Assembly: GCA_963556695.1 (NCBI GenBank)
Contig: CAUWAG010000003.1
Location: 4,588,001-4,652,000, forward strand
Length of the DNA: 64,000 nt
Direction of reading: 5' to 3'
Source: Anthostomella pinea
Lineage: Eukaryota > Ascomycota > Sordariomycetes > Xylariales > Xylariaceae
The notes beneath the pieces are model-generated. The model made no database searches. It saw only the letters and a list, made by a program, of their open reading frames with translations, and was not told the origin of the DNA. Both the position numbers and the translations under genes were made by a program. Shown here in pieces: positions 25,220 through 59,836 of this stretch (position 1 is the first letter of the stretch; each line of letters opens with the position of its first letter).

Positions 25220-26602
25220 GACGAAGCGAAGCCTCGATCGAAGTACAGAAAACAGGAAGCCTGACAATCCGCGTAGGATGACGAAACATGAACCGAAACC
25301 CAATATACCGAAAGGCCAGGAGGGCGCCTTTTTTACGTGACATGTGACGATGGAACGAGCATCGCCACTGCTCTCCCCATGGCTTCTCACTCTCTACCGG
25401 CAGTCTGGCAATGCAACTGTAGACGGTTATTTCATACCATAGTAGACCGAGCAGTCCCTTCCGTGACAATCGTTGCCGGTCGGATGCATCCCGCGGCCCC
25501 GGGCAAGGATCTTCTCAGCGGCAGGGTATACCTGCATCGGTCTTTACCCCGTATAGACTATAGTACTTGGCTATAGCCTATCACAGGGTCTCGGTCACGG
25601 GCCGGGGTGATGGATGAGCTGTCATTTACGATTTGAATTACCCCATTCCGAGGCTCGAAATTGTCCTTATCTTCCACCCCAATTGAACCAATGCATTCCA
25701 GTGATCCCGTGAAGCCCTTACATACTACCCGTCTATCTCCTCGACACAGCGATCATCCATCGGTCCAAGATGGCCCATGTCGGACGTGGGTTGGGCCTCC
25801 GTCTGAGTTGCGAGACTATCAACTATCCGCCAAAGTTATATGCCCACAGGCATTGGGGTTTCTGTGCCTGCGGCTCATGCATGCATGAGAAAACTCCTCC
25901 ATTTTGGCCTATATATTTCGGATCATCGGACATCGATTTGAGGAGATGATATGAGTGACGGGTCGTGATCGATAAACCCCTCAGCTTCTACCGCTGGCTT
26001 TGCAATGCTTTCGACTAGACACACATCTCCATGTCTACCTACAGTCACAAAGAGGTCGAAGGAGCGCATTCCTCGGCGTAGTCGGTCAGTCTGGAGCTCC
26101 TCGTGTAGGAGTAGCACACCCTGCCGCTTGGCTATGAATCACATGATGTGTGAAGTCTCTGTTAGCGTTCCGTCGCCTCGGGTCCAACCCAGACGCATCG
26201 CCAACTGACCCCCACGGCTTCGTACTCAAGAATGCCTCTCTGCCATGCTGGAATGGAGAGCACTAGATGACGCGGCGGATTGTGCTCTACACCGCGGCCC
26301 AGGGCTTCGGGTGTGATGAGATATGGGTTGGTACTTCTCAAGCCTCTCAACGTCAAGGGAACAGAACCCCAGCCAGTTCTCATAGGAGTACGGAAGCAAT
26401 GAGGCAATGTAGGGGCATTAATACTGTCTATGGGAAGGACGCACCCCATATGGATGAAGCCAAAAGGCCCCTAGCCCCCAAGTCCTCCGCGCAAGACACC
26501 GTACGATTCATTCTGTCTTCGCATCTGACCTTTCACGGATGCTCGAAACTACGTTCGGCAAGAGGTAGTCAGTCTAGCGAGCAGCGAAAATGTTCATGAC
26601 CG
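25220..26602. other. Divergent promoter region of the FAD oxidase and rhodopsin-like genes
   Basis: 1.4 kb between genes read in opposite directions. Normal base composition and no coding sequence recognised. Confidence 0.4.
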
Positions 26603-27434
26603 ATGGCGTACAAACCATCATCATATACCGGCCCCAGAAGGCTATGTGGTCAACTTCCGCGATCCACCGCAAATAGGCAAGACTCCGATCTTCGCCGTCT
26701 GCATTGTCGAGAACATCGTGGCCTTCGCTTTCCTGTCGCAGCGCTTGTACACCAAGTTGTTCCTGATGAGGAGCTTTCAAGCAGAAGAATGTAGGCCATG
26801 ATTCCTCGTTCCGTACCCAGGTAACTGGCATGGCGTGAATCTACATTTGCTGACCGCGAGCACACAGTTACCGTTCTTCTTGCCTGGGTGACCTCGGTGG
26901 TGACGCAGGCACATCTCCTTCAGCTATACGTCGTGAAGGCCGTCGGCGTGCACGCCTGGGAGATGCCCTTGGAGCCGTACCGGTACTTCAGCCAGGTGAG
27001 TGCATGTACCCCTATCATTGATCGAACCCGCTGATGACCCCTTTTGTTTGCCAGATGATCTTTTCCGCTCCCTTGGTGTATACCATCACGGTTGGCGCCT
27101 CCAAGGCGACTCTGTGCCTATTTTATCGACGTCTCTCGCCCTTCCACTCGTTCCAGTACTGGGTCTGGGCGACCTTCATCATATGCGTCGGGTCCTCCGC
27201 GGGAATATTCCTCAGCCTACTATTTGCCTGCCGGCCCATCGCCGCCAGTTGGGATCCAACACTGGCGTTGACGGCAAGCTGCGTCGACAGAGGCGCGATT
27301 TATGTAGCAACCACGGCACTGGGCGTTTTCACTGATATTGCCCTCCTGGCCCTGCCAATGCCCACCGCGATGCGATTGCAAATACGGACAAAGCAGAAGC
27401 TTGGCCTCCTGTTACTCTTTGCCGTCGGATCATT
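26603..27434 (+). CDS. Fungal rhodopsin-like 7TM protein, 5' exons
   Basis: First three exons of a seven-helix integral membrane protein of the large Fung_rhodopsin (SAT-type) family: 26603-26790, 26868-26995 and 27055-27434. Segments include PEGYVVNFRDPPQIGKTPIF, a first helix FAVCIVENIVAFAFLSQRLY, then VLLAWVTSVVTQAHLL, YRYFSQMIFSAPLVYTITVG, KATLCLFYRRLSP, WVWATFIICVGSSAGIFLSL, the FACRPIAASWDP motif, and CVDRGAIYVATTALGVFTDI with LPMP. The gene resumes at 35789 beyond a transposon. From the only good ATG (26603), the frame to PEGY requires one C fewer in the run 26632-26635, so either the start is elsewhere or there is a +1 frameshift. These proteins have unknown ligands; they are not light-sensing opsins by any visible evidence. 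Confidence 0.72.
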
Positions 27435-27526
27435 GTTCTTTAAGATTCCGGTGTCCGGGCCTTACCATCCCCCCATAGAAGTCGGACACCCCCACTAGTC
27501 GGACAGCCAAACCCCACCATCACCAC
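27435..27526. repeat. Left terminal inverted repeat (and host intron start)
   Basis: Host intron sequence runs 27435-27464. The element begins at 27465 with CCATCCCCCCATAGAAGTCG and matches the reverse complement of 35692-35755 for about 62 bases, differing mainly by two extra C/G in the right copy. TA at 27463-27464 is the target duplication. Confidence 0.85.
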
Positions 27527-27712
27527 TAAAACACCCCCTTATTCACTTATATACAAATGAAGCCGTTTAGGTTAGAGAAATACAGCGAAATTATTATTCA
27601 AAAGCGTTAAAGCTACTTATGCGTAATATCTAGCCGGCGCTTAAATGGCTCGCCTAAATGGCTCGCCTAAATTGTAATAAGTAAGGCTTTTATATGGCCT
27701 TTAAAACGTCTT

Positions 27713-27943
27713 TGTCACGTTCTGTATAAGGGTTGTTGAGCATAAGGGCTCCAATTATTATATATCTACGAAAATCTCTTGGTGAAGAGAAGGGAAAGAA
27801 GATCAGGTCCCCCAGCCAAATTGGGTGGTGTGATAGATCTGTGCAACCAGCTCCATAACGCTCCACTTTTCGGAACGGGACAACGTTGGCCAAGTCACGT
27901 GACGTGCACGTGACAAGGCCCTAATGGTAGCTGCACTATCACA
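27713..27943. repeat. Solo LTR, 5-bp duplication GTCTT
   Basis: 231-bp island of normal GC inside AT-rich DNA. It begins TGTCACGTTCTG and ends TATCACA (TG...CA ends), and is flanked by perfect GTCTT duplications at 27708-27712 and 27944-27948. No internal region remains, so it is a recombined solo LTR. It is related to the LTR-like segment at 56549 (shared CAGCCAAAT, CACGTGA and AATGGTAGC words). Confidence 0.82.
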
Positions 27944-28973
27944 GTCTTTATTAAAAGCGTTATCTTTATTTTTCTCTTTATTTTTCGATTTAATAAGTAT
28001 TTTTTTATACCTTTATGCGTATGGTAAGGCTAATAATACTTTTTAAAAATAATATTTTTATTATCATCTTAAACTTTTTATTAAGATTAAGGATTTTTAG
28101 CGATTTTTAGCCGTAATTACTTTAATTTAGCCTTTAAAGTCTTAAAACTTTTGATTTAATAATAATATCGGTCGTTTTAGCTTTAAACGCGTTCATTATG
28201 TTTTTATATTTCAGTCTAGTCTTCAAGAAAATATTTTTATAGAAATTTATATTTTAATAGCTTATAATAATAGTTTGTTAGTTTTTTAATTTAAAGGTTT
28301 TAAAAATATAAAGTTTAAAGGCTTTTTTAAGTGATATAAGCACATTTTATAGTTAATAAAATCGCATTTAGTAACCTTAAAGCTTGAAAAAATATTTTAT
28401 TTAATAAAAGTAAAAGTTTTTCGTTTTGTTATAATAACAAGAAAAATCAATCTTATTAACAAGTAAAGTATTTATCAAAGAATTTAACTTAAAGAGCAAT
28501 TCTTGGAAATAAGCTTTTAAAGCGTTATAAAGTCCGTTATTTAGAGGTTATATATTATGATTAATACACCTAAGAAAAAATTGAAGCAAAATGTTATTAA
28601 AATAATACAATGTTATTATTTCGTTTTATTAACACGCGTTAAATTATATTAAATTAAAAAAATTAAAAAGGAGTTTAAAAATTAAAATTGTATATATATA
28701 TGAAGGTATAACTTTTATAGCCATTTAATATTAAAAGGATCGCTTTAAACTGGTTTCTTCCTCGTTTTGCGTTTATTTCTAAGAAAAAACATTTTTTAGC
28801 TATTTGCAAGCAATATTATTCGAAATTTAGCCGTTTCAAAGCATATATAATACTAATTAGCAGTCTTTCAAACTTTTTGATAAACTATTAAACTTAAAAG
28901 GTTTTTTTAAAGATAATGCTTGAATTAAAGATTTTTCTAATTGCTAAAATAGTTTCGATAAAAAAGGGTTAAC

Positions 28974-29187
28974 TGTTACGGCAAGCGTACTGAGGAGCTG
29001 GGACATGGCCGGCAGCAAGCAGCTATTACTCTATTGACGAGAATATCAAGACTAGAGAGGAAAGGAAAAGAGAGAGAGAGATAGGTACAGTAGGAGGTTG
29101 CCCCTTTAAGGGGATCCTCTGGTTAGATCCTTCCCCTATTAGGAAGTATCCGCTTGTCATGTGGGAAGGTCTGTGCAGGCCGTCACA
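28974..29187. repeat. Solo LTR, 5-bp duplication TTAAC
   Basis: 214-bp GC-richer island starting TGTTACGGCAAGCG and ending GGCCGTCACA, flanked by TTAAC at 28969-28973 and 29188-29192. It is a different LTR family from the one at 27713. Confidence 0.85.
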
Positions 29188-29408
29188 TTAACTTTAACTT
29201 CAAAACATTTTTGAAAAGGCTTTTTAAATAACAAAACTACTAGATATAAAAGAGTTAATGCTTATAAATTTAATTAGTGTTGGATCCATGCGATTCCAGA
29301 CTGCAAACCATCTATACCAGGACCCATATGTATGATTAGATAAGATAAGATAGTGGATTGAGAGGGCACTTGGCTAGACCTTCGAGTCCAGCTAGATTCC
29401 TCTCAATC

Positions 29409-29581
29409 TGTTGGATTAAAGGTGAGCCCAGAGGGCACCTTGATAGGTAGACACCAGAACCTAGTTGTTCCGTCCCGATCCAGCCCCCTCTGGCATAAAA
29501 CTGCCACGGTCGCACGAGGACACTCTAAAGAGACAGAATACACAGACACACTTCAACCTCACGATTGGCTCAAATCTGACA
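29409..29581 (+). repeat. Copia 5' LTR
   Basis: Begins TGTTGGATTAAAGG, ends CTCAAATCTGACA. Pairs with the 3' LTR at 34460-34632; same length. Confidence 0.92.
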
Positions 29582-29638
29582 ATTAAGAGTCTCATCGCCG
29601 ATCCCTTTGACTAAACCCATTTATCCTGCATATCTAAA

Positions 29639-32600
29639 ATGCCTGTCCTTTCAACCCTTCGAGAGTCTGAGAAGGCAGACTTCTCAGCATCACTGTCGGA
29701 AGCAAGAGAATGGCCCGAATGGGACCATGAGTTCCAACTGAAGGCAGACAGACGCCTTAGGTCTTCTTGACCTCTTCATTCAGACGGAGGGAATTATACC
29801 ACAACCAGAGATTCCAAATATTGCACGAAAGAAATACAAGAAGAAACGAACGACTCTCGAATCAAGCCAAATCATCGAAGTCAATCCCGATCCGAATGAC
29901 GGAAACGAAGACGACGAAATCATTCAACACAAGCAAAACAATGACATGTGGATGTTATCAGATCTAACGACATTGGGGAAATAAACCTATGAACTCGATA
30001 ATAGCTTTTACGATCAAATCCAGAAGCTGCACAAGAAGCAAGCACTGTCTTTGGAAAAGATCAAAAACCATATACTCAAGTCTGTCACAAACCACTACAA
30101 GACCACCTGCTGCATTCCAAAGCAACCAATCTAGGAGTGGTACGCAAATCTCTAAGCCCAGTGCGGAATGGCAAGTGCAGATGAGCAGAAGGATGCAAGA
30201 CAACTCTACAAGACAGCACTCCAACCCCTCAAAAATCTCAAGAACGCAGCAAGATGGATTACTTCTTGGGAGATCGCCTTTACAAAGGCCCATCAGAAGG
30301 AAGTTCCCGAAACGCTCAGCGTGAGCTCGTGGGCCAGAGACTTCCTGGACGCGGTATCCGAAGCATTTCCCATGTGGTCAAACACTTACGCGGTTACCAA
30401 AGACGAACAAATCCAGCACGGGATTCTCAAACATCGAGATCTTGTTAACGACTTCACAAGAGCTATTTTGCAGACCACCAACAAAGCTGGATGAGCCTCT
30501 AAAGGTGCATTTGGGTCTACCTATAACGGCGAGGGCTCCGGCAAAGGAGAACAAAAAGCCGGAAACAAAAGGCCTAGGAGACAACAGACCAAACGCCGAC
30601 TGAGGAACGAGAGAAGTAGGGATAAAGACCATTCCGAATGTCCAGCGTGTGGAATGGATCACGCATTGGCGAATTGTTTCTATGTCTTCCCGGAGAAGGC
30701 ATGGAAGGGCTTCCGATCTAAGGACTATCTCGTCGAGAAGACGACCCAAGTCTTGGAAGATCCAGAACTACAAGCTCAAATCCGCGCCTTGAAGCAGAAC
30801 AAGACAAAATCAAGCACAAAGACTCCTCAACCTAAAGGAGAAGAGCCTAAAGAGATTCAAGATTGACTCTATGGCAGAACAATGGGCAAGGTGCCATCAG
30901 CCTTCACAGCGGTCAAATCAGACGACTATCCACTGTCCTATTCAGTCATTTTAGACAGTGGAAGTACCATCACGATCACAAACCAAGCATGGCGTCTAAC
31001 CAGCTGGAGGACTGCGCCACCAGGGGATTTTGTATGGTTAGGAGACCGCCCTCTACCCATCTAAGCGTACAGAAATATGCAAGTATGCGTCGGAAGCACG
31101 ATTATCAGCTTCCCAAATACAGCCTACTGCCCCTCACTCTTCACCACTCTCGTATCCCTACGAGAACTCAGACAGAGAGGATATTGGTGGGATAACAAGG
31201 AAAGGCAGACCAGTCTCAAAAAAAGAGACAATACCTTGGTCGGCTATATCAAGGACATGTACGGCCAATATGTCATCGACTACCAACCGAACGACCTGAA
31301 CGCTATGTTTCACACCGCACAATGCAGCAAGAAGCATCTACACAACTCATGGTTCAGAAGACCTCCTCTCACTGGGAACGCATGGCTATGGCATCAACGA
31401 CTAGGACATCCTGGCCCAGAAGCTTTGGAACACCTAGTGCGCGCATCTCAAGGGGTGGTCATCCGAGGACCAACAGGAGTGAAATGCGAGTCATGCGGAA
31501 TGTCTAAAGCCAGACAGCATATACAGAGAGCACCACAATCTAACTACAAAGATCCAGGAAAGAGATTAACTCTTAACTTCCACGACTACGAGAGGTCGCT
31601 GTCAAACGAGTCATCTCATATGGTCTTCACATGCAGAAACTCTGGTGTCTTATAGGACTATGCTCTCGAGAATCGAACTACGGAAACAATCATCCGTGTG
31701 GTGTCAATGCACCTCTTGTGACTGGAACGCCAATACGACATCAAAGTCAAGATAATTAAAACAGACAATGAGATATATATTAACAAGCCAGACATAGAAA
31801 GATGGCTAGAAGCCTGCGCGATCAAGGTAGAGCCCTCGGCTCCCAGTACACAAGCCCAGAATAGAAGTGCCGAGCGCCTAGGGGATGTACTGAAAATGAA
31901 AGCGCGCGCGATGCAAATTAGTGCTAGATTACCGACCTTCCTGTGGCCAGAAATACTCAAAGCGGCTACATATCTCTACAATCAGACACCAAGAAGAAAG
32001 AGTGGATAGAAAAGCCCCTTTGATGTCTTCTTTGAAGCAATTACAAGGAAGACAGGTTGACCAATGGCCCCTGACAAGCGTCCCGACCAGACACATCTCT
32101 GGGTGTATGGCTGCAAGGCCTATGCAATGACAACCGACATGAAGTTGGGTCGCCAAAGGCTAGACAGACTCAGTCCCAAAGCATGGATTGGATACTTGGT
32201 TAGATATCGGTCCTCCAATATCTACCGTGTGTGGGTGCCTCACCTAAACAAGGTGATAAGTACGAGAGATGTCGCTTTCAATGAGAACGAGGTATTTGAT
32301 GGAAATAAAGAGCGGTTCCGAGATGACTTGAAGACGGCGACTGTTGAAGAGATACAGGCCATGGTTAACAAATACGCTCTATCCGAGTCCGACGACTATG
32401 TCCAGGACAAGGAAGAAAATCCTGATGAACTGTAAGCAGACCAATATCCTCCCCCGACGGGGATACAAGTCCAAGAGGACAAAGAGGAAATAGATGTGGG
32501 TATTGGGAATGAGCACCCATACACCACGGCAAAGTTTGCCCTATTACTTTCACTACTGCCTAGTCCTCCGTCTGCCCTGTTATGTCATAGTATTCAGAAG

Positions 32601-34422
32601 GGGAATAAGGAACCCAAAAATCTTCTCCAAGACCCAGGACGAAAAGAGCTCGAGCCTTGGAAAGCGGCGTTTTTAGCAGGCCTCAAGGCTTTGCCCATAG
32701 AACGATTGGGTCAAAACACCCTAGATCGGGCAAGCATTGAGAGAGCCTTGCGAAAAGGATTTAAGCTGTACAGGCGACTCCTGGAAGAAGCGCCACAGCG
32801 GCGCGACAAACTAGCAACCCATTCAATAAGACATCTGTTCAAAATGGCCGAAAAGGATCACCTAAAAAGTCATGACGGCATGAGGTCATGGACTGAGATC
32901 CAAAAGAAAGACCCATCTATACGAGGACATCAAATCTTGGACTGCATGTGGGTGTATGTCTATAAGTTTGATAAGCATGGGAGGTTCATCAAGTGCAAGG
33001 CACGTCTCGTGGTCAGAGGAGATCAACAGAAGGGGCTGCATTCAGAGCAAACGTATGCAGCTACTCTTACTGGAAGATCGTTCAGAATCTTGATAGCCCT
33101 GGCGGCCAAGTTTGACCTTGAGATGATCCAGTACGACGTTGTTAACGCCTTTGTGCACGCCCCTATCAATGAGAAGATCTTCATGCAAATGCCACACGGC
33201 TATCGCAAGAAAGGTACAATTCTTTAGTTGAATAAGGCACTCTATGGGCTGAGGATTTCTCTATTGTTATGGCAAAAGGAGTTCTCAAAGACTCTAGCCA
33301 GCTTGGGATTCAACCCAGTTCCACATGAGCCGTGCTGTTATATAAGAAAAGGAATCATGATATTCTTCTATGTGGACAACGTGATCGTCGCATATAGAAA
33401 ACACGCACAAGAAGATGTCCAAGACGTGGTTCAGCAGCTTCAACGAAGATACGAGATCACTGGAGGCGAGCACGTTCAATGGTTCCTTGGAATGGAAATC
33501 ATTCGGGACCGGCACCAGCAAAAGATTTGGCTATCCCAGACCTCCTACATTAAGAAAGTAACCAAGCTAATCAATCTGACCGACAGACTCCCTGAGGTCC
33601 CAATGGGTACAGAAGAACTACTGCCCTAGCAAGATCACGCCGCCCCCCACAAGATCCAGAAATACCAACGAAAGATTGGTTCTATCCTATTTGCCTCCGT
33701 TTCCACATGACCAGACATAGCCTTTGCAACATCACGCCTCGCTAGATTCTTTACGAACCCAAGTCAGATCTATCAGAATGCCGCCGACCGAGTCATCCGA
33801 TACCTATACAAAACAAGACACTACTCTCTCTAGTTTGGAGGAGGAGACGATTTAGTGGTGGCCAGTGATGCTTTCTTTGCCAATAATATTTCCGACAAAA
33901 AGAGCTCTCAGGCATTTGCTATGACTCTCTTCGGAGGATTGATCGGCTAGAGGGCCAATAAGCAAGACACAGTTACTATATCGACTATAGAAGCGGAACT
34001 ACTTGCACTGGCTCAGGCAGTCAAAGAGACTCTGTATATCAGCCGGCTGGTTACGGAATTTGGTGTTCAACTCGAACATAAGAAGATCAAAGTGGAATGC
34101 GACAATACAGACGATTAAGTTAATGACCGCCAAAATTGCCCTCTTAAAAACCAAGTTGCGGCATGTGGACATACACAACCATTGGCTTCAACAAGAAGTG
34201 GAACGAAGAACTGTCAGCATCAAGTACACGCCTTCACCGAAGATGAAAGCGGATGGGTTGACCAAGGCCTTGCCGGCTCAACGGTGGGCAGGATTTCTGG
34301 ATCAGTTGGGATTGGTAGACACTCGGGCGAGGCAGCTTGATTTGAGGTCACAGGAGGGAGCCATTGAGAAGAGAGAAGGGATTCTGAGTCAAGACCCTGA
34401 AGTAATTTACTCTATAGACTAG
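29639..34422 (+). pseudogene. Copia gag-pol polyprotein, broken by stops and frameshifts
   Basis: Starts at the ATG 29639 with a gag reading that soon hits stops. Recognisable parts in order: gag (KDARQLYKTALQPLKN, 30190s); zinc knuckle CPACGMDHALANC (30640s); aspartic protease ILDSGSTITITNQAW (30950s); the pre-integrase motif HQRLGHPGPEALEHL (31395) and CESCGMSKARQH; integrase pieces to about 32130; reverse transcriptase with YAATLTGRSFRILIALAAKF (33055), YDVVNAFVHAPINEKIFMQM, LNKALYGL and the FFYVDN active-site variant of YVDD (33365); and RNase H (VASDAFFAN, then EAELLALAQAVKET with altered residues, 33990). Several stops are TAG/TAA where CAG, CAA or TGG would be expected, for example 33226-33228, fitting C-to-T or G-to-A decay. 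It is not expected to move unaided. Confidence 0.9.
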
Positions 34423-34459
34423 TTCAGCCAGAGCCGTAGCCTGCCTGGCTGAGGGGGTG

Positions 34460-34632
34460 TGTTGGATTAAAGGTGAGCCCAGAGGGCACCTTGATAGGTA
34501 GACACCGGAACCTAGTTGTTCCGTCCCGATCCAGCCCCCTCTGGCACAAAACTGCCACAGTCGCACGAGGACACTCTAGAGAGACAGAATACACAGACAC
34601 ACTTCAACCTCACAATTGGCTCAAATCTGACA
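34460..34632 (+). repeat. Copia 3' LTR
   Basis: Same 173-bp sequence as the 5' LTR apart from five transitions; followed by the CAATC duplication. Confidence 0.92.
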
Positions 34633-34962
34633 CAATCCAACCATCAGCAACATCATGACCTTGACCCCATACTCGAGTATTATGATTGATCTTTCAAGCC
34701 TGTTCCCACAATTAGATTTTCCTCAGAATTAAAAAGGTAAATATAGCTATTAAAACCCGATATAATGCCGCTTTTATCGACCTTATAAGGTTTTTTTAAC
34801 TTTACTTAGCCGTAATTTCCCCCTCAAAATCGAAAAATTAATTAACTAATTCAAGCGTAAATCTTTTAAAAGGTATTGCTTTTAATTTTTTTATTAATTT
34901 TAATTTTAATTTCAAAGTTGTAGCGCTTAAAAGCTGTTATAAAAGTATCTCTTAAAAGATTA

Positions 34963-35158
34963 TTAGGTAAGAGTTAAGATAGCTGAATGCTAAAGCAAGG
35001 TGATAGCGGTGATTCCAAGAAGTAGGTGTATGAGGATACTTCAATCGATCCTGGTATATTTGTAGGAATTAAGCCTTTTAAGGGGATGTGGTAGTGGAGC
35101 CTTAGGGCTCCGATCAGTGACCAGTCGGCCTGATATGCCGGTGGAATACCCTTATACA
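34963..35158. repeat. LTR-like GC island, no duplication found
   Basis: About 195 bp of moderate GC within AT-rich element DNA, ending CCCTTATACA, so that its complement starts TGTATAAGGG like an LTR. No clear matching target duplication or left boundary; could be a truncated solo LTR. Confidence 0.4.
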
Positions 35159-35691
35159 ATTTTTTTTTTTATCTTTTTAAATAATTTTACGGATTAAAAA
35201 GTGTAAGAAAGCTGAGCTTAATTTTTCTTATAATAAAATCTATTTTATTATAATCCTTTTTTACGTAAAGAAAAGTCTTCATTGCTATATGTAAGTTTTA
35301 ATCTTGATAAGCTTGCCGTTAAGTTAATTACATAGCGTTTAAAACGAAATACCGTGGTTTTATTATCTTTTTTACAAGATAAGCCCTTATTTATAATATT
35401 AAAAATAATATTAGCTATTAAATTCTTTATATACATAAGAAAATGCATTTTAAGCGGCTATATATCGCTGCGTTACATATAAAAGAAGGCTTTAAAGGAG
35501 CTATATAAGACTGTAAATTTATCATTTAAGGTAAAAAACGCGGGATAATTAACAGCTAATTACGTAAGCGCCGCGAGGTAAATTTTATATTAGGAGAAAG
35601 CTTAAGATCAGGGCTATGTAAAATACTAATTATGTTCTAAATAACTTTAATATCGGGCTAAAAGCGTATATGTGAACATGTGGGAGTTTGG

Positions 35692-35755
35692 GTGGTGATG
35701 GTGGGGTTTGGCTGTCCGACTAGTGGGGGTGTCCGACTTCTATGGGGGGGGATGG
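35692..35755. repeat. Right terminal inverted repeat
   Basis: Inverse copy of 27465-27526; ends GGGGATGG followed by TA (35756-35757), which matches the TA before the left repeat. Confidence 0.85.
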
Positions 35756-35788
35756 TACAGCATAGCGCCTCCAGCTGACCAACTCTAG

Positions 35789-36349
35789 AACACTTCTCAC
35801 GTCCATCGCTCGCCTGGTCATTCTACTGCCCAGCTTATACAACCCGGACCAGACATATGCCCTGACCAAGGGGACGCTGTGGATGTAAGTAGAGCCTACG
35901 CAGGGGCTAGAATCATGACTGACGGAATCAGCTGTATCGAGGCCAACCTCCTGATTGTGTGCTGTTGCCTGCCCACACTACGTCAGTTTGTTCGACACGT
36001 AGCACCCAGCATCATAGGCGAGAAGAGCTCGAAGGACAGCGAGGCACCTCAACTACATTACGCACTGCACACATCCGGAGGCTCATCGAGAAAACGGGGG
36101 TATCAGCACCGGTCTTCGCGTTTTGATACCTTGATGAGGACACAGGCCACCCGTCTCGAAGACGACAACTCGAGCTCAACCGCGCATCAAGACCTTAAGC
36201 TCGACACCCGGTATCCTCAGATAACTAGCATCCGTGGTGGCAGGCAGTCGCAGGCTAGTGACGTTGGGCCCGCGAGCTATGATGCCGATGAGGTAGCCCT
36301 GAACTCGAAGACTGTCACTTACGAAGTGAAATACGAACCTGCCGGATGA
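35789..36349 (+). CDS. Fungal rhodopsin-like 7TM protein, 3' exons
   Basis: Continuation of the gene starting at 26603. Exons are 35789-35884 and 35932-36349, separated by a 47-nt intron (donor GTAAGT). They encode LLTSIARLVILLPSLYNPDQ, then TLWICIEANLLIVCCCLPTL (the seventh helix with the EAN and CLPTLR motifs of the family) and a hydrophilic cytoplasmic tail of about 120 residues. The acceptor CTCTAG at 35788 follows a CTGACC branch site, both present in the right flank of the transposon. Together with the 5' exons the protein would be about 402 aa, assuming one C fewer near the N-terminus. Transcription through more than 8 kb of intron containing LTRs is doubtful, so expression is uncertain. 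Confidence 0.7.
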   Translation, partial: NTSHVHRSPGHSTAQLIQPGPDICPDQGDAVDVSRAYAGARIMTDGISCIEANLLIVCCCLPTLRQFVRHVAPSIIGEKSSKDSEAPQLHYALHTSGGSSRKRGYQHRSSRFDTLMRTQATRLEDDNSSSTAHQDLKLDTRYPQITSIRGGRQSQASDVGPASYDADEVALNSKTVTYEVKYEPAG

Positions 36350-37755: not shown

Positions 37756-39116
37756 GGGGACGCGGTGGTGGAGGCCTAGGCGGCAGCCACGGTGCCGGGG
37801 ACGCCAGGGACGACGATGGCCGAGCACGTGTTGTGAGGAGCAGTCTTGGGCCGAACACAACAGACTTACTGCGCGCACCCCCTTCATGCTGAGCCCTTCG
37901 ACACCCTCGCAAGCAGCAGATTCCGAGGGTGGCCTCTTTACCAAAGACTGATTTTCGGGCTGTACCACAAAAGGGGACGGTCTGGATTGTGACGGATAGC
38001 AATCACAAAGACGGGAACATGGCTCGCTTTGGAGTACTGAGGTCTGCTGTTCTTTTACCGCCTTAATAGCGCACCAGAGTCTGTCGCAAGAGAGAAGTGG
38101 GCTTCGAAGCTCTTTCGTACTCTATTCAGTGGCTTACTTGCTGGAAGGAAAGGGGAATACTTCCAAGCGTACGGCGTTGGTGGAACAATGGTTTATAGGT
38201 ATCGGTCTTGTGTACTACCAATTGACTCGAGAATTTCAATGTCTTGATGCAAATCCCACGCAATTATCGAGGAAATCCTGAATGGAACAGCTTTCGTATT
38301 GAGTCTGGATATTTGCACCTTACCGAAACTCCTTATTTGCACCTTAAGAGGCTTTCATCAAACTCGATCTAATCTGCTAGGCCGGATGGCCATCGCCATC
38401 AGGTTCCGTGTAGTGATGCCATACGATTTCAGATCATCAGGTCCTTTATAACAAGATACGTTGACCTGCTCAGTTAGATGGCGATTGATTAGGTTTAATC
38501 AGGCAGCTCCTCAACGTAGATAGCTACCACGATCGTGTTCTGTATGTCGATGCCATATCATTTCAGATCATCATGCCCCTCGCAGCTGGACCTTGGTGAG
38601 CTTGGTAGGCATCCCGTCGTCAGATGGCTGTCGAGTAGGGGACCGCGCTAAGGTGCAAATATCAAGACTCTTCGTATTTCTCTCACGACTGACATGCTGG
38701 CGGCACGGATGTCCCAAGGGTGCAAAATCTTTATGGAGTCATCGACTTGTTGAGCAACGTGTATTTCTTATTGCACAGCTAGCTGGTAGTGCCCACTAAA
38801 GCTTGAACTTCTGGTCTACCGCTACTCTGGGCGCTCTATCTCTGAATCGGATGTATGTACAGGCGGCGACAGATCACGGATGGGGCAAAAGCAGGTCAAG
38901 ATGCCTGTCCAGACATCTCTGTTTAGCGGCATTGTTACGCATGAAGTAGGCAGAACTGGTATCTCCCGAGTAGCACCCCTTTTCCGATCCCTCAGTGCCA
39001 TATAATCAAGACATTTCCACCTCATCGGTTGGCGACTCTCTTCGGATTCTAACCCAAACAAGACGCCAGATACTCGACTGCGTCTTTGAACCCTGCTTTC
39101 CTCGGAAACAGTCGGA
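37756..39116. other. Region between converging genes; contains a possible MITE
   Basis: 3' flanks of the U2AF and oxysterol-binding genes. A 356-bp segment with 15-bp inverted ends lies at 38308-38663. No coding sequence recognised. Confidence 0.4.
38308..38663. repeat. Possible MITE with 15-bp inverted ends
   Basis: GATATTTGCACCTTA at 38308-38322 is exactly complementary to TAAGGTGCAAATATC at 38649-38663. An internal TTATTTGCACCTTAAG and a near-direct pair, GATGCCATAcgATTTCAGATCATC (about 38418) and GATGCCATAtcATTTCAGATCATC (about 38550), add internal structure. No target duplication found. Confidence 0.4.
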
Positions 39117-55935: not shown

Positions 55936-56163
55936 CAGGGTCCGAAAAAATACTATTAGTATTCGTACTTAGTATTGTATCGTGTTAGTGTCGTATTGTA
56001 TTAGTATCGTATCGTATAGTATTAGGTTTGAATACTATTTAGTATAAATTTGATGATTTTTCTATGATTTTTAAGCCTGTTTTCTTTTAATAAAAAATTC
56101 TTTTAAAATGAATTTGTTATCTATATATATATAAAGTGTTTTAAATATTCTTTATTTTATTAT

Positions 56164-56423
56164 TGTCAGATTCAAGGGATCTCCAGGGGTGTATGCCCTG
56201 TCGAGTGCTGGCTAGTCAATTGGCTAGTCAAAGAGGCTGCCATGACTAGCACCCTGAATCATACGTTGACTCGGAAAAAGGTGGGCCGGAGGATCGTCTC
56301 CGGCATCTCCGGAGCTGTACAAATAGGTGTAGATACCACACAATTGGGATAGCTGAGAAATGATAACAACGATTGCAGCTACCGTTCAAGACTATAGGCT
56401 TGTCAACTCTTTGAAATTTGACA
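56164..56423. repeat. Solo LTR in the hAT remnant, duplication ATTAT
   Basis: 260 bp beginning TGTCAGATTCAAGG and ending AAATTTGACA, flanked by ATTAT at 56159-56163 and 56424-56428. GC content well above its surroundings. Confidence 0.78.
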
Positions 56424-56548
56424 ATTATTATTTAAATAAAGAAAACACGATATATGTATTCTTCCTATATATTTGAATTTAAATATATATATATTTATTT
56501 ATTTGTATATTTAGATAAATAAAAACGGGTTCTTAAAAAAATTCTATT

Positions 56549-56797
56549 TGTGACGTTTTGTATATGTGAATAGGACATAGAAGCCCTTGTTTACTAAGTA
56601 CGTATAACTATCTCTTACTGAAGAGGAAAAAGAAGATTAAGCGGCACAGCCAAATCTAGTGGGCAACTTGATAAGTGTGTCCGCCCCACAATTCAAAGCC
56701 ATAGTGGGCCTGGGACAACCAGTCGTCCAGGAGGTCACGTGCTGTCACGTGATCCCAGGACCATCACTAATGGTAGCGACGTAGCAACCATAACACA
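56549..56797. repeat. LTR-like segment related to the 27713 solo LTR
   Basis: Starts TGTGACGTTTTGTATA (compare TGTCACGTTCTGTATA at 27713) and shares GAAGAGGAAAAAGAAGA-, CAGCCAAAT-, TCACGTG- and CTAATGGTAGC-like words in the same order. The end is placed at an ACACA, but no clean duplication was found. Confidence 0.55.
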
Positions 56798-57086
56798 ATT
56801 TAAATATGTTCGATTTTATGATAAGAAAATACATAATTTTAAAATATATCAGGCTAGCTTACGTAGGATTATACCTATTATAACAATCGAAAGAATATAG
56901 TCGTATATATTTAAATAAATAAATATTAAAAGTCAATAATAAAAATTTACAAAGATCGGCTCAAAGTAGATCGTCGTATATATTTAGGTAAATAAATATC
57001 AAAAGTCCATAATAAAAAATTATAAAGGTCAAATCAAAAGTTAAATCATAAAAGGTAAAATGATCAAAAAAAAGAATATTAATAAG

Positions 57087-57349
57087 TGTAGGATACAGGT
57101 GCCGTACAAGTGTGTTGGCAGCTGTTCAAGCAGCTGTATCTAACCAAAATAAGTGGTCAAAGGATGAAAGGGGTGAAAGCACTAGAAGTTATGGCTTTCA
57201 GGGTGATAGACAAGGCTTCATTGATTGCCAGATCAATGGATAGGCGAATCTTTGTGCTTTAGTGTGTATTTAGTACTAGATTTGGTCCTCAGATCCGATA
57301 GACGATTATGCAAGCAATTCACCCTAATATTGGACCCTGAATTCTGACA
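57087..57349. repeat. LTR-like GC island in the hAT remnant
   Basis: About 263 bp starting TGTAGGATACAGGTGCC and ending GAATTCTGACA. TG...CA ends and GC contrast suggest a solo LTR; flanking 5-mers do not match. Confidence 0.45.
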
Positions 57350-57894
57350 CTAATGAATTATTTATATTATAAGCCAAGTCGTTTATTAATAACTTCGCTT
57401 TGTATTTATTTGTTAATTTAGCTAGTTTTTATTTTATTTCAAAATTTTATTTTTTAAGTAGTAATATTCTCCGCATTGTTTTAAGTTCCAAATTAACTTA
57501 TAAGCGAGTTATAATATAACTAGCGGTCGAAACCCGGCTTTTTATACGCGTAAAAATAGCTTATATACCTAAATATTGTTTAGTTATAATAGTTAAAACA
57601 AGCCACAAAGTACTTTTGATTTTTTAACAAGTTAAAACATCGACTTTATATTAGCTATTAGTAATTATTTTCATACGCTTAAAATAATGAGATATTATTA
57701 CCTTTCGATTTTTTCTTTTTTCTTTTAAATATTTCATACTTCGAGATATACATTATTATCTTCTATAAATAAACCGTTGTCTTTTGATCTCTACTCTTCT
57801 AAAATATTGTTTATATATTTATTTTGTGTACTTTAAAATATAAACGAATTTGTAAAATTCTAGAAGAATTATAAGCCTTGGGGATGTGAGCGGT

Positions 57895-58046
57895 CGCTGC
57901 AAATATTGTTGTCATTCTCAAATATGCTCGGCAGGGCTAATCTACAGCTAAATACCATACTGCACTATACTAGGGTAGATCCACTGTTCCCTTAACAGCC
58001 CCCTAATGGGTACTGCACTTAAGGGCACCATATCTAGGATCCAACA
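57895..58046. repeat. LTR-like GC island in the hAT remnant
   Basis: About 152 bp; its complement starts TGTTGGATCCTAGATATGG, similar in its first 10 bases to the solo LTR at 29278. No matching target duplication; probably truncated. Confidence 0.4.
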
Positions 58047-58360
58047 TCTGACAAAATCTTATTCTAAGATATTTATATACTCTGTTTTATATATTATTAT
58101 GTTTTAATCCTTATATTTATAGAGAAAGATTTATTATAGTTAAATTAAATTATCAAGATAAAATAAAAGTCTATTTATAACATTATTATACTAATTTTTT
58201 TCTTTTATTTCTTTCATTTAAAAATTGTAACTTAAATTAAAAGGCGCCACTTTCAGATTTTATTAGTACTAATTGTATACTAATCGTATACTATCGTATT
58301 GGTTAATATCGTATCGTATTGGGTCAATACGATACTAAGTATCGTATTTTTCGGACCCTG

Positions 58361-59455
58361 CGCAGGGCCGTCTGCTACTCTTCTATCTTCGATGACAGCA
58401 CTGCTTCAACAGAACCAGCCTTGAGTCAAGCTCTGCAAGCGCAACCGACCAGATCTGGGGCACGGCCGCCGGGGGGATCGGTTACACCATAACATCGGAT
58501 GTCTGGCGGAGCTCCACTTGCCATGCCACTTGCCATGCTCCCAACCTCGACTTCGCAAGCGATTCGGCCATTGAATGCGTTCCGGGGTTCTAGAGCAGGT
58601 GAACGACGGGTCCCAGCACCACGGATACCTACCACTCGACTTGCCGTCAGCATGTCACATCGTTCGCGCACCTCTCATCACACCTTGAGACCCGAAATCG
58701 TGTTCATTGTATTGCGGAACGAAAGACCTTCCTACGGGGTCGGCTGACCATATCGCCCCCAACATCCATGTCCCTACCTACCTCACGTTGGAATTTCTCC
58801 CAAAGCTGCTGTGACCCCTGCTCCTATGCAAACCCTGGTGTGACGCGGCCTCGACGCGATTGAGCATGATGAAATCAAGTGACAAGTAAAGACGCACCGC
58901 TCTGTCGGCACTCGGCCGATATCCTTCCTGAAATGCGGAGGAACAGCGACACAGCAGCAGGGGATTTTCAAAGCTCAGCCTCTCTTGGCGCGTATCTACC
59001 TCCTATTATGTCCGAATTCAGAGCGGTTCCATCGTTCCTCCACATAAAGCCCCATTAGATATGAGCTACCCAGCAAATCCCGTATCAACCGAGTCAAGTA
59101 CCCAAGACAAGAATCGTCGACGATGAAGGCTCGAGGAGCAGATCTCGTCGCCGACATCTTGACCTCTTACAAGATCCCTTGGGCCTGATCTGCAGTTTGG
59201 CGGATCCGAGAAAGCGCCGCCGTGCATTCACTCGGCAGCAGAATCAGCCAACAGGCAGACAATTCCATGGTACGCAGCCATGATGGCGCACATGAGCCAT
59301 GTGTGATGACGAAAGCGGTTGGAGGGACGGACGAGGGCAACCAATCCGCCCATGGGACCATGCTCCCAAACCCCCGCCATGTGGCAGACCCGTCCTTGTC
59401 AGCTGTCGTGAAACCAACGACATGTCCTCGCTACTCGTCAGGGCTATAATCGCCA
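58361..59455. other. Intergenic region, no gene seen
   Basis: GC-normal sequence between the hAT remnant and the inverted-repeat element. No supported coding region. Confidence 0.4.
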
Positions 59456-59836
59456 TTGACCCACTTTTACGGTCGTGCCTCCCTGTAGGTCATGGACATT
59501 GAATCGGTCACATACTTTGAATCGGTCAAAAATAGGATGTGGCTCAAGCACCAAAAATGTTCATTTTCCAGCCACCTCCAGCCACGTCGCCGTCCCCCCA
59601 TCAAAACTTGCCAGAGAAAACAATCTGGAATAAAACAGCAGGAAATGACTCGCATACGCTGTAAATACATACTGTAATAATTAACTATCAGGCCAAGCTA
59701 TTAACATTTTAATGGAATTAATTGCAGTCGATACAAGCTTGCTGCAAGCAAATAAGCTATTTTTGACCGAATCAAAGTACGTAACCGATTCAATGTCCCT
59801 GACCTACAGGGAGGAACGACCGTAAATGTGGGTCAA
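59456..59836. repeat. Foldback element/MITE with about 80-bp inverted ends
   Basis: Left arm starting TTGACCCACTTTTACGGTCG and right arm (complement) TTGACCCACATTTACGGTCG match over about 80 bases, including CCTCCCTGTAGGTCA and GACATTGAATCGGT. The 380-bp unit has an AT-rich centre. No target duplication identified. Confidence 0.7.

Follow-up and report, generated by a model that had tools for sequence, protein, structure and literature searches.

We describe a stretch of 64,000 nucleotides (hereafter the window; contig CAUWAG010000003.1, G000:C2:4588001-4652000) from the genome of the ascomycete Anthostomella pinea, in which a gene for a fungal rhodopsin-domain membrane protein is interrupted by transposable elements lying inside one another. 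Successive independent insertions have built a three-deep nest in one intron of this gene, made of a transposon with terminal inverted repeats (TIRs), a long terminal repeat (LTR) element that we call C and a Copia retrotransposon, with two further LTR elements, A and B, and a short repeat resembling a miniature inverted-repeat transposable element (MITE) inserted beside this stack. We consider it probable that the locus reflects such successive insertions together with a C-to-T process that depends on homology and length and is proportional to age, most likely repeat-induced point mutation (RIP), and this process would be mainly responsible for the differing base composition of the layers. 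It would build up on long repeats in rough proportion to their age, hardly affect the outer ~70 bp of the TIR elements, be about halved in the Copia LTRs and act little on repeats of ~200 bp. The old 2.2-kb core of the TIR element would thus have become AT-rich and the younger 5.2-kb Copia element lightly mutated, while the short LTRs would keep a normal composition regardless of their date of arrival. The genome, 53,736,082 bases in 16 contigs, is that of A. pinea F5 (or of its deposited version), an isolate whose source was a lichen (PMC10763133).

The nested insertions are confirmed. All five insertion duplications are exact (TA, GTCTT, TTAAC, ATTAG and CAATC; Table 1), each junction pattern has a single match between positions 27000 and 36500 of the window, and every nested element is repeated elsewhere in the same 53.7-Mb genome. 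When the flanks of each insertion were joined and sought in 20 fetched loci of the TIR family, with at least 20 bp spanned on each side, empty sites were found in 15 loci for LTR A, 8 for LTR B, 12 for LTR C and 2 for the short repeat. Without the inserts and one duplication for each, the TIR element is ~2.2 kb long, like most of the 12 related copies that we cut out (2,133-2,709 bp), and with Copia removed LTR C aligns over its full length (204 nt) with LTR copies from other places, the identity reaching 98.5%. Long-read assemblies polished with Racon and Medaka are prone to small indels. The assembly used here is of this kind (PMC10763133), which gives some ground for suspecting an artefact; five insertions with exact duplications, the unoccupied sites found in related copies and the continuity of the gene on either side of the nest make an origin of the nest in the assembly extremely improbable.

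The insertion order that can be read is TIR element, then LTR C, then Copia, the last of which may have landed in LTR C when this was already solo or when it was still part of a full element. The initial annotation had reported layered insertions with intact junctions, listing the TIR element, the three LTRs and Copia, and had taken their order to be directly readable. The layering and the inventory of five agree with our results, except that the short repeat at ~34966-35158 had been overlooked, and the order stands for the three stacked elements; LTRs A and B, and likewise the short repeat, are not orderable against LTR C or Copia. As the duplications around them suggest, recombination between LTRs would have cut A, B and C down to solo LTRs.

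Table 1. The interrupted gene and the elements inserted in it; positions are those of the window
Feature	Position	Strand	Basis
Fungal rhodopsin-domain (PF20684) membrane-protein gene, interrupted	26590..36349	+	Homologue alignment
Predicted intron, donor GTTCTT (atypical), acceptor CTCTAG	27435..35788	+	Joined-flank splicing
TA duplications and TIR element 27465-35755 (8,291 bp)	27463..35757	.	TA at 27463-27464 and 35756-35757
Solo LTR A 27713-27943, GTCTT duplications	27708..27948	.	Target site duplication, genomic repeats, empty sites
Solo LTR B 28974-29187, TTAAC duplications	28969..29192	.	Target site duplication, genomic repeats, empty sites
LTR C, 29278-29408 and 34638-34710 (204 nt), ATTAG at 29273-29277 and 34711-34715	29273..34715	.	
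Copia element 29409-34632, CAATC duplications; LTRs 29409-29581 and 34460-34632	29404..34637	+	
Short MITE-like repeat, ~193 bp	~34966..35158	.	Genomic repeats; terminal inverted repeats

That the nest lies within an intron of a gene for a membrane protein, as proposed from the outset, is supported by the gene itself. Joining the flanks and removing the predicted intron, which measures 8,354 nt at present and 61 nt once the element and one TA are taken out, yields a continuous conserved protein across the junction, with VGSLTLLTSIARLVILLPSL matching the invariant GS.T..TSI.RL of seven aligned homologues. At least 81 proteins are found among the matches listed for this PF20684 gene, the best being from Seiridium unicorne (62%), and the aligned identity of the product is 57-63% to proteins of Seiridium, Pestalotiopsis and Apiospora and 50% to that of Cucurbitaria. 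In the assembled sequence the 5' reading frame does not share the phase of the conserved frame from ~26617-26625, and a phase change near this point is needed to trace the N-termini of homologues (e.g., MVT-VDGVEVIMAPPDGYVVNF) in the window. This change, in the 5' exon (window 26590-26680), adjoins a CATCATCATATA stretch; it may be a second lesion in the gene, or the assembly may be off by a base or two. A start codon previously placed near 26603 lies outside the conserved frame and was rejected. Because of the 8.35-kb intron and the 5' frame break in the sequence as assembled, the gene is probably dead.

The outermost layer is, by its structure and relatives, a pogo/Fot1-type element of the Tc1/mariner superfamily. 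Its ends are similar over ~90 bp, with 83-nt arms that are 92% complementary, and TA stands on both sides of nine of the 12 related copies (L035, L043 and L048 differ on one side). Relative L042 carries HTH_psq (PF05225) and DDE_1 (PF03184), each in an open frame of its own and both reading against the left-to-right order of the window; in the window copy the longest frames are short, and transposase domains were shown in L042 only. The family includes AT-rich copies (the window's, L033, L035 and L038), with a core GC content of 21-29%, and GC-normal copies (L040-L042 and L047-L051), with 44-49%. In the window the pieces of the core have 21-27% GC and the terminal 140 bp 44-45%, and ~55% of the C/G sites of the core are C-to-T mutated. 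Relative to L042 we counted 183 C>T/G>A changes, 19 in the reverse direction and 39 transversions at positions 300-1000, and 229 C>T/G>A and 24 reverse changes at positions 1000-1900, so that the AT shift noticed earlier in this element is both real and directional. CpA was the context most often changed (61 of 82 sites), and CpA and CpT both exceeded CpG. L048-L051 did not enter this comparison with L042; L043, which is truncated and partly misaligned, was excluded from the TIR mutation spectra and clock counts, and L041, a near-duplicate of L042, from TIR rates and clock counts.

The mutated core fades towards the ends of the element. With the four AT-rich copies pooled, the proportion of C/G sites changed on the left side is 4% at 1-35 bp, 8% at 35-70 bp, 23-33% at 70-210 bp, 46% at 210-250 bp and 60% at 250-300 bp; for the core it is 51-62%. 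The right side has successive values of 32%, 54%, 23%, 40% and 52% between 1928 and 2123, and of 12%, 7% and 10% over the final ~105 bp. We profiled six further AT-rich loci for the same sparing (L034, L036, L037, L039, L043 and L052), and the five that retain a TIR end have at most 5 changed of 32-33 sites in an end bin.

Copia, the innermost layer, has also been C-to-T mutated since its separation from its relatives. It contains gag_pre-integrs and RVT_2 domains in reading frames broken by stops; where an integrase core would lie, between protease and reverse transcriptase, the piece 31722-32006 has no Pfam match, in a stretch broken by stops. Its LTRs of 173 nt, 97% alike, begin with TG, end with CA, are flanked by a 5-bp duplication and differ at five sites, all transitions. 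At least 17 places in the genome, the window included, match a 601-nt internal probe over all or all but 4 of its bases with 87-100% identity, as scored in 40 of 47 candidates. The window copy differs from four other full-length copies at 275-324 of ~5,090 sites, 10-21 of them by transversion. Changes private to a copy were judged against these four for Copia and against 10 other copies for the TIR element; the 4,878-bp internal region of the window Copia has 89 private C>T/G>A changes, 5 reverse changes and 4 transversions (86, 5 and 4 with other bins). In the five copies pooled, C>T affects 447 of 9,492 sites of the internal region and 18 of 806 in the LTRs (Fisher P=0.0005), transversions are alike (36/21,229 and 3/1,606), and C>T is also low in the 180 bp that precede the 3' LTR (6/433).

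These profiles suggest a generalization that we put forward tentatively, as possible: RIP-type mutation would spare a graded 100-200 bp at both ends of long repeats and act little on ~200-bp repeats, and would kill transposase and polymerase genes but leave TIRs and LTRs near intact, so that dead copies could be mobilised in trans or used as promoters and solo LTRs would accumulate in their hundreds. The clean TIR ends could also result from selection for transposable ends, or from gene conversion by intact copies. Such an origin, which would concern the end gradient only and is compatible with the other readings discussed here, is a possibility of some weight, short of probable: TIR ends are common to many copies (43 matches, with 40 of 283 candidates scored), and the edges of L037 and L039, which lack the left part, are not spared. 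It accounts less easily for the C-to-T load of the Copia LTRs and of the 180 bp leading up to the 3' LTR, which is lower than that of the interior at similar transversions, or for sparing at the left TIR that grades to ~200 bp, beyond the ~90-bp arms.

The dependence of the C-to-T process on length is supported at the level of families. Pairwise transitions amount to 57.9 per kb in the Copia internal region (5 copies), 20.8 in Copia LTRs (14 kept, solo LTRs and those of full-length elements combined), 19.3 in LTR B (29 copies) and 7.9 in LTR C (23 kept of 29), with pairwise transversions of 4.0, 4.1, 3.1 and 2.9 per kb, respectively; short LTR families of like transversion load thus have transitions three- to sevenfold below those of the Copia interior. 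These counts come after copies with less than 93% identity to the window had been dropped (6 of 29 for C, 1 of 15 for the Copia LTR, 2 of 4 for A and none of 29 for B). Among singletons, the ratio of C>T to transversions is 447:36 in the Copia internal region and 22:8 in LTRs B and C pooled (P=0.002). The case rests on family-level counts because changes in the window's short LTRs are too few; LTR C, for example, has one private C>T and two transversions in 204 bp. RIP typically requires repeats of ~400 bp, although some of only 150 bp have been affected in Neurospora (PMC10787394). The initial annotation had concluded from the unshifted solo LTRs that RIP acted before they arrived or weakened later. 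This does not follow, because the solo LTRs, at 204-231 bp, are below the length on which RIP typically acts, and because the proper witness is the 5.2-kb Copia, which has itself acquired C-to-T changes after parting from its relatives. Given the low load on short repeats at family level, we rejected solo LTRs as evidence on the timing of RIP.

Transversions offer a clock for the age of each layer. Private transversions in the TIR core reach 34 per kb in the window copy and 21, 41 and 62 in the other AT-rich copies, against 1.3-10 in seven GC-normal TIR copies and 1.7 in Copia. The C>T load, expressed as -ln(1-p), is 0.81 in the window TIR element, 0.56, 0.82 and 0.67 in the other AT-rich copies, 0.006-0.089 in GC-normal TIR copies and 0.048 in Copia. 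By private transversions the window TIR element appears ~20 times older than Copia copies, its C>T load is ~17 times higher, and the ratio of C>T per transversion gives no sign of faster mutation per unit time in old copies. It could be argued that RIP was strong when the TIR element was alone and then stopped or weakened, the LTR elements and Copia having come later. AT-rich and GC-normal copies of one TIR family do coexist (core GC of 22-29% and 44-49%), full-length LTR elements L054-L056 and Copia copies L058-L061 mostly have 45-55% GC, and some GC-normal TIR copies (L047 and L050) have almost no C>T. We nevertheless consider such a history unlikely, since Copia copies, including that of the window, carry many private C>T and few reverse changes, the C>T load roughly follows the transversion clock, the RID-like genes described below are open, short LTRs are poor reporters of RIP, and the C>T-per-transversion ratio of long young elements is, in part, at least equal to that of old ones. 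A weakening of RIP is not needed because the load of the TIR element is roughly proportional to its greater transversion age. A steady, length-dependent RIP-type process would suffice for the observed loads, and neither 'stopped' nor 'weakened' RIP is required.

The genome combines directional C>T/G>A change in repeats with the presence of a RID-like methyltransferase gene, as expected of RIP. Four loci match the DNA methylase family PF00145. Two of them, L105 (contig C5) and L106 (contig C4), have open frames of 813 and 864 aa, both with SPPCQ..SPAHT. L105, annotated with 731 aa, has two 'RIP defective' proteins of Apiospora (42% and 46%) among the 120 listed of its 275 homologues; L106 is presumably RID/Masc1-like, given the shared motif, and L104 presumably Dim-2-like. 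One genome would thus hold two RID/Masc1-like methyltransferase genes with open frames.

Spontaneous deamination of methylated cytosines in silenced repeats could also produce a C-to-T load without RIP. In Copia, CpG is the fastest context (83/875 sites, 9.5%), followed by CpA (144/2413, 6.0%), CpT (94/2758, 3.4%) and CpC (52/1903, 2.7%), which together with the roughly clock-like load and the four loci of the DNA methylase family would agree with deamination. Yet CpA, CpT and CpC in Copia are all far above T>C (0.39%) or transversions (0.17%), and in the old TIR core of the window CpA and CpT changed more than CpG, so that we regard deamination as quite unlikely to be the source of the load.

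Several observations weigh against our preferred account, a length- and age-dependent process that is most likely RIP. The context order in Copia is led by CpG, unlike classic RIP, which is led by CpA. RIP is usually fast, so that a clock-like load is unexpected, and C>T per private transversion has a roughly ninefold spread among copies, L047 and L050 having almost no C>T; moreover, transversions in the AT-rich (old) copies may be inflated by misalignment. With respect to length, the comparison of Copia LTRs (18:3) with the internal region in C>T to transversions is not significant (P=0.22), in the short elements, too, C>T outnumbers T>C (14 to 3 in B and 8 to 1 in C), and LTR B of the window has 3 private C>T/G>A changes in 214 bp (14 per kb), compared with 18 per kb in the Copia interior; taken by themselves, the short-LTR counts of this locus are not decisive. 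The sampling of copies may have contributed, as dropping those below 93% identity lowers divergence (6 of 29 in C and 1 of 15 in the Copia LTR), the copies of B and C are the best-scoring 40 of 594 and 576 candidates, respectively, and hence the most window-like, and the depth of comparison is unequal (28 other copies for B and 22 for C, versus 4 for Copia). As for the ends, the gradient on the right side of the TIR element is irregular (23-54% between 2018 and 2123), and L037 and L039, whose left part is gone, perhaps by truncation or interruption, have 8/14 and 6/15 sites changed at the left edge.

The solo LTRs belong to families of very different size. Within three mismatches, the first 30 nt of LTR B match 353 places in the genome and the first 32 nt of LTR C 289, the reversed patterns used as controls matching none; LTR A (window 27713-27943) is found at 7 places including the window, versus hundreds for B and C. 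Full-length relatives of LTR B are of Gypsy type, L054 having reverse transcriptase, RNase H and integrase zinc-binding domains, with rve below the cut-off, and those of LTR C are of Copia type, L056 having RVT_2. LTRs B and C accordingly show TG..CA ends, a duplication and two-LTR relatives, and LTR A an LTR and a duplication, no full-length relative of A having been recognised among its 7 places, whose flanks were not searched. Target site duplications were scored in 21 of 33 rows for C, 16 of 35 for B, 3 of 4 for A (the window's own included) and 5 of 17 for the Copia LTR; these rows repeat the window's own copy, list some copies under two loci and also count LTRs that belong to full-length elements. 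In L054 and L055, both LTRs of the full-length LTR B elements run on into identical GCCGT sequence, which suggests tandem copies with a common LTR.

The short repeat has 31 candidates genome-wide, including the window, with 71-93% identity outside it, and imperfect terminal inverted repeats that are TGTAAGGGT-like and ACCCTTACA-like; a clean target duplication was not found in the window. Its identification as a short interspersed nuclear element was rejected, as it has inverted ends instead of a clean tail. Elsewhere in the window, 200-bp bins of 56001-57000 alternate between 21-23% and 48-49% GC, as if short unmutated elements lay in a mutated host; 57001-58400 has 22-36% GC, and 57848-58057 shares 89% identity with a part of L057. 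A 381-bp element at 59456-59836 has 80-nt inverted arms, 93% complementary, and is foldback or MITE-like, and 38385-38578 contains two 60-nt direct repeats, 73% alike, that start 134 nt apart.

Where insertions are stacked in a fixed order and transversions supply an independent clock, one can test whether genome defence can be dated from base composition. Unmutated solo LTRs indicate little about when RIP was active, and the long innermost layer should be used instead. If the sparing of ends proves general, RIP would leave the sequences needed for mobilisation, which bears on the persistence of solo LTRs and transposable ends in RIP-competent fungi.

Fungal transposons of the pogo/Fot1 type are ~2.2 kb long, with a TA duplication, TIRs and a DDE_1 transposase. 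The outermost element resembles them in its TA duplication, TIRs, length of ~2.2 kb and the DDE_1 domain of its relative L042, and differs from a typical member in that the core of the window copy is mutated, AT-rich and split by four insertions, with no transposase recognised in it. Nested elements, solo LTRs and a length limit for RIP are already known, and the locus is ordinary in kind except for the graded sparing of transposon ends, its least ordinary part. In the literature searched, much of it available only in part, we met no account of transposons with a graded end profile. In Neurospora constructs with interspersed homology, the distal ~130 bp could escape RIP (PMC4858203). In Zymoseptoria tritici (Mycosphaerella graminicola), all repeat families have elevated transitions, 24 families with an average match below 200 bp (10 MITE and 14 unclassified) lack a CpA bias, and one LTR element has a mutated interior and identical LTRs (PMC4522978); a graded end profile and a nested locus of resolved order were not met in the sections of that source available to us. 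Similar solo LTRs are known from crapaud, an LTR retrotransposon of Podospora anserina whose full copies are bimodal in GC and whose solo or fragment LTRs are mostly unmutated, for which the authors invoke their small size (PMC10787394). According to the same source, the LTRs of full crapaud copies (339-443 bp) are targeted by RIP. In A. pinea, the 173-bp LTRs of the five full Copia copies carry about half the load of the interior. Unlike crapaud as described there, the A. pinea layers are nested in one gene, and transversions provide an independent clock for them.

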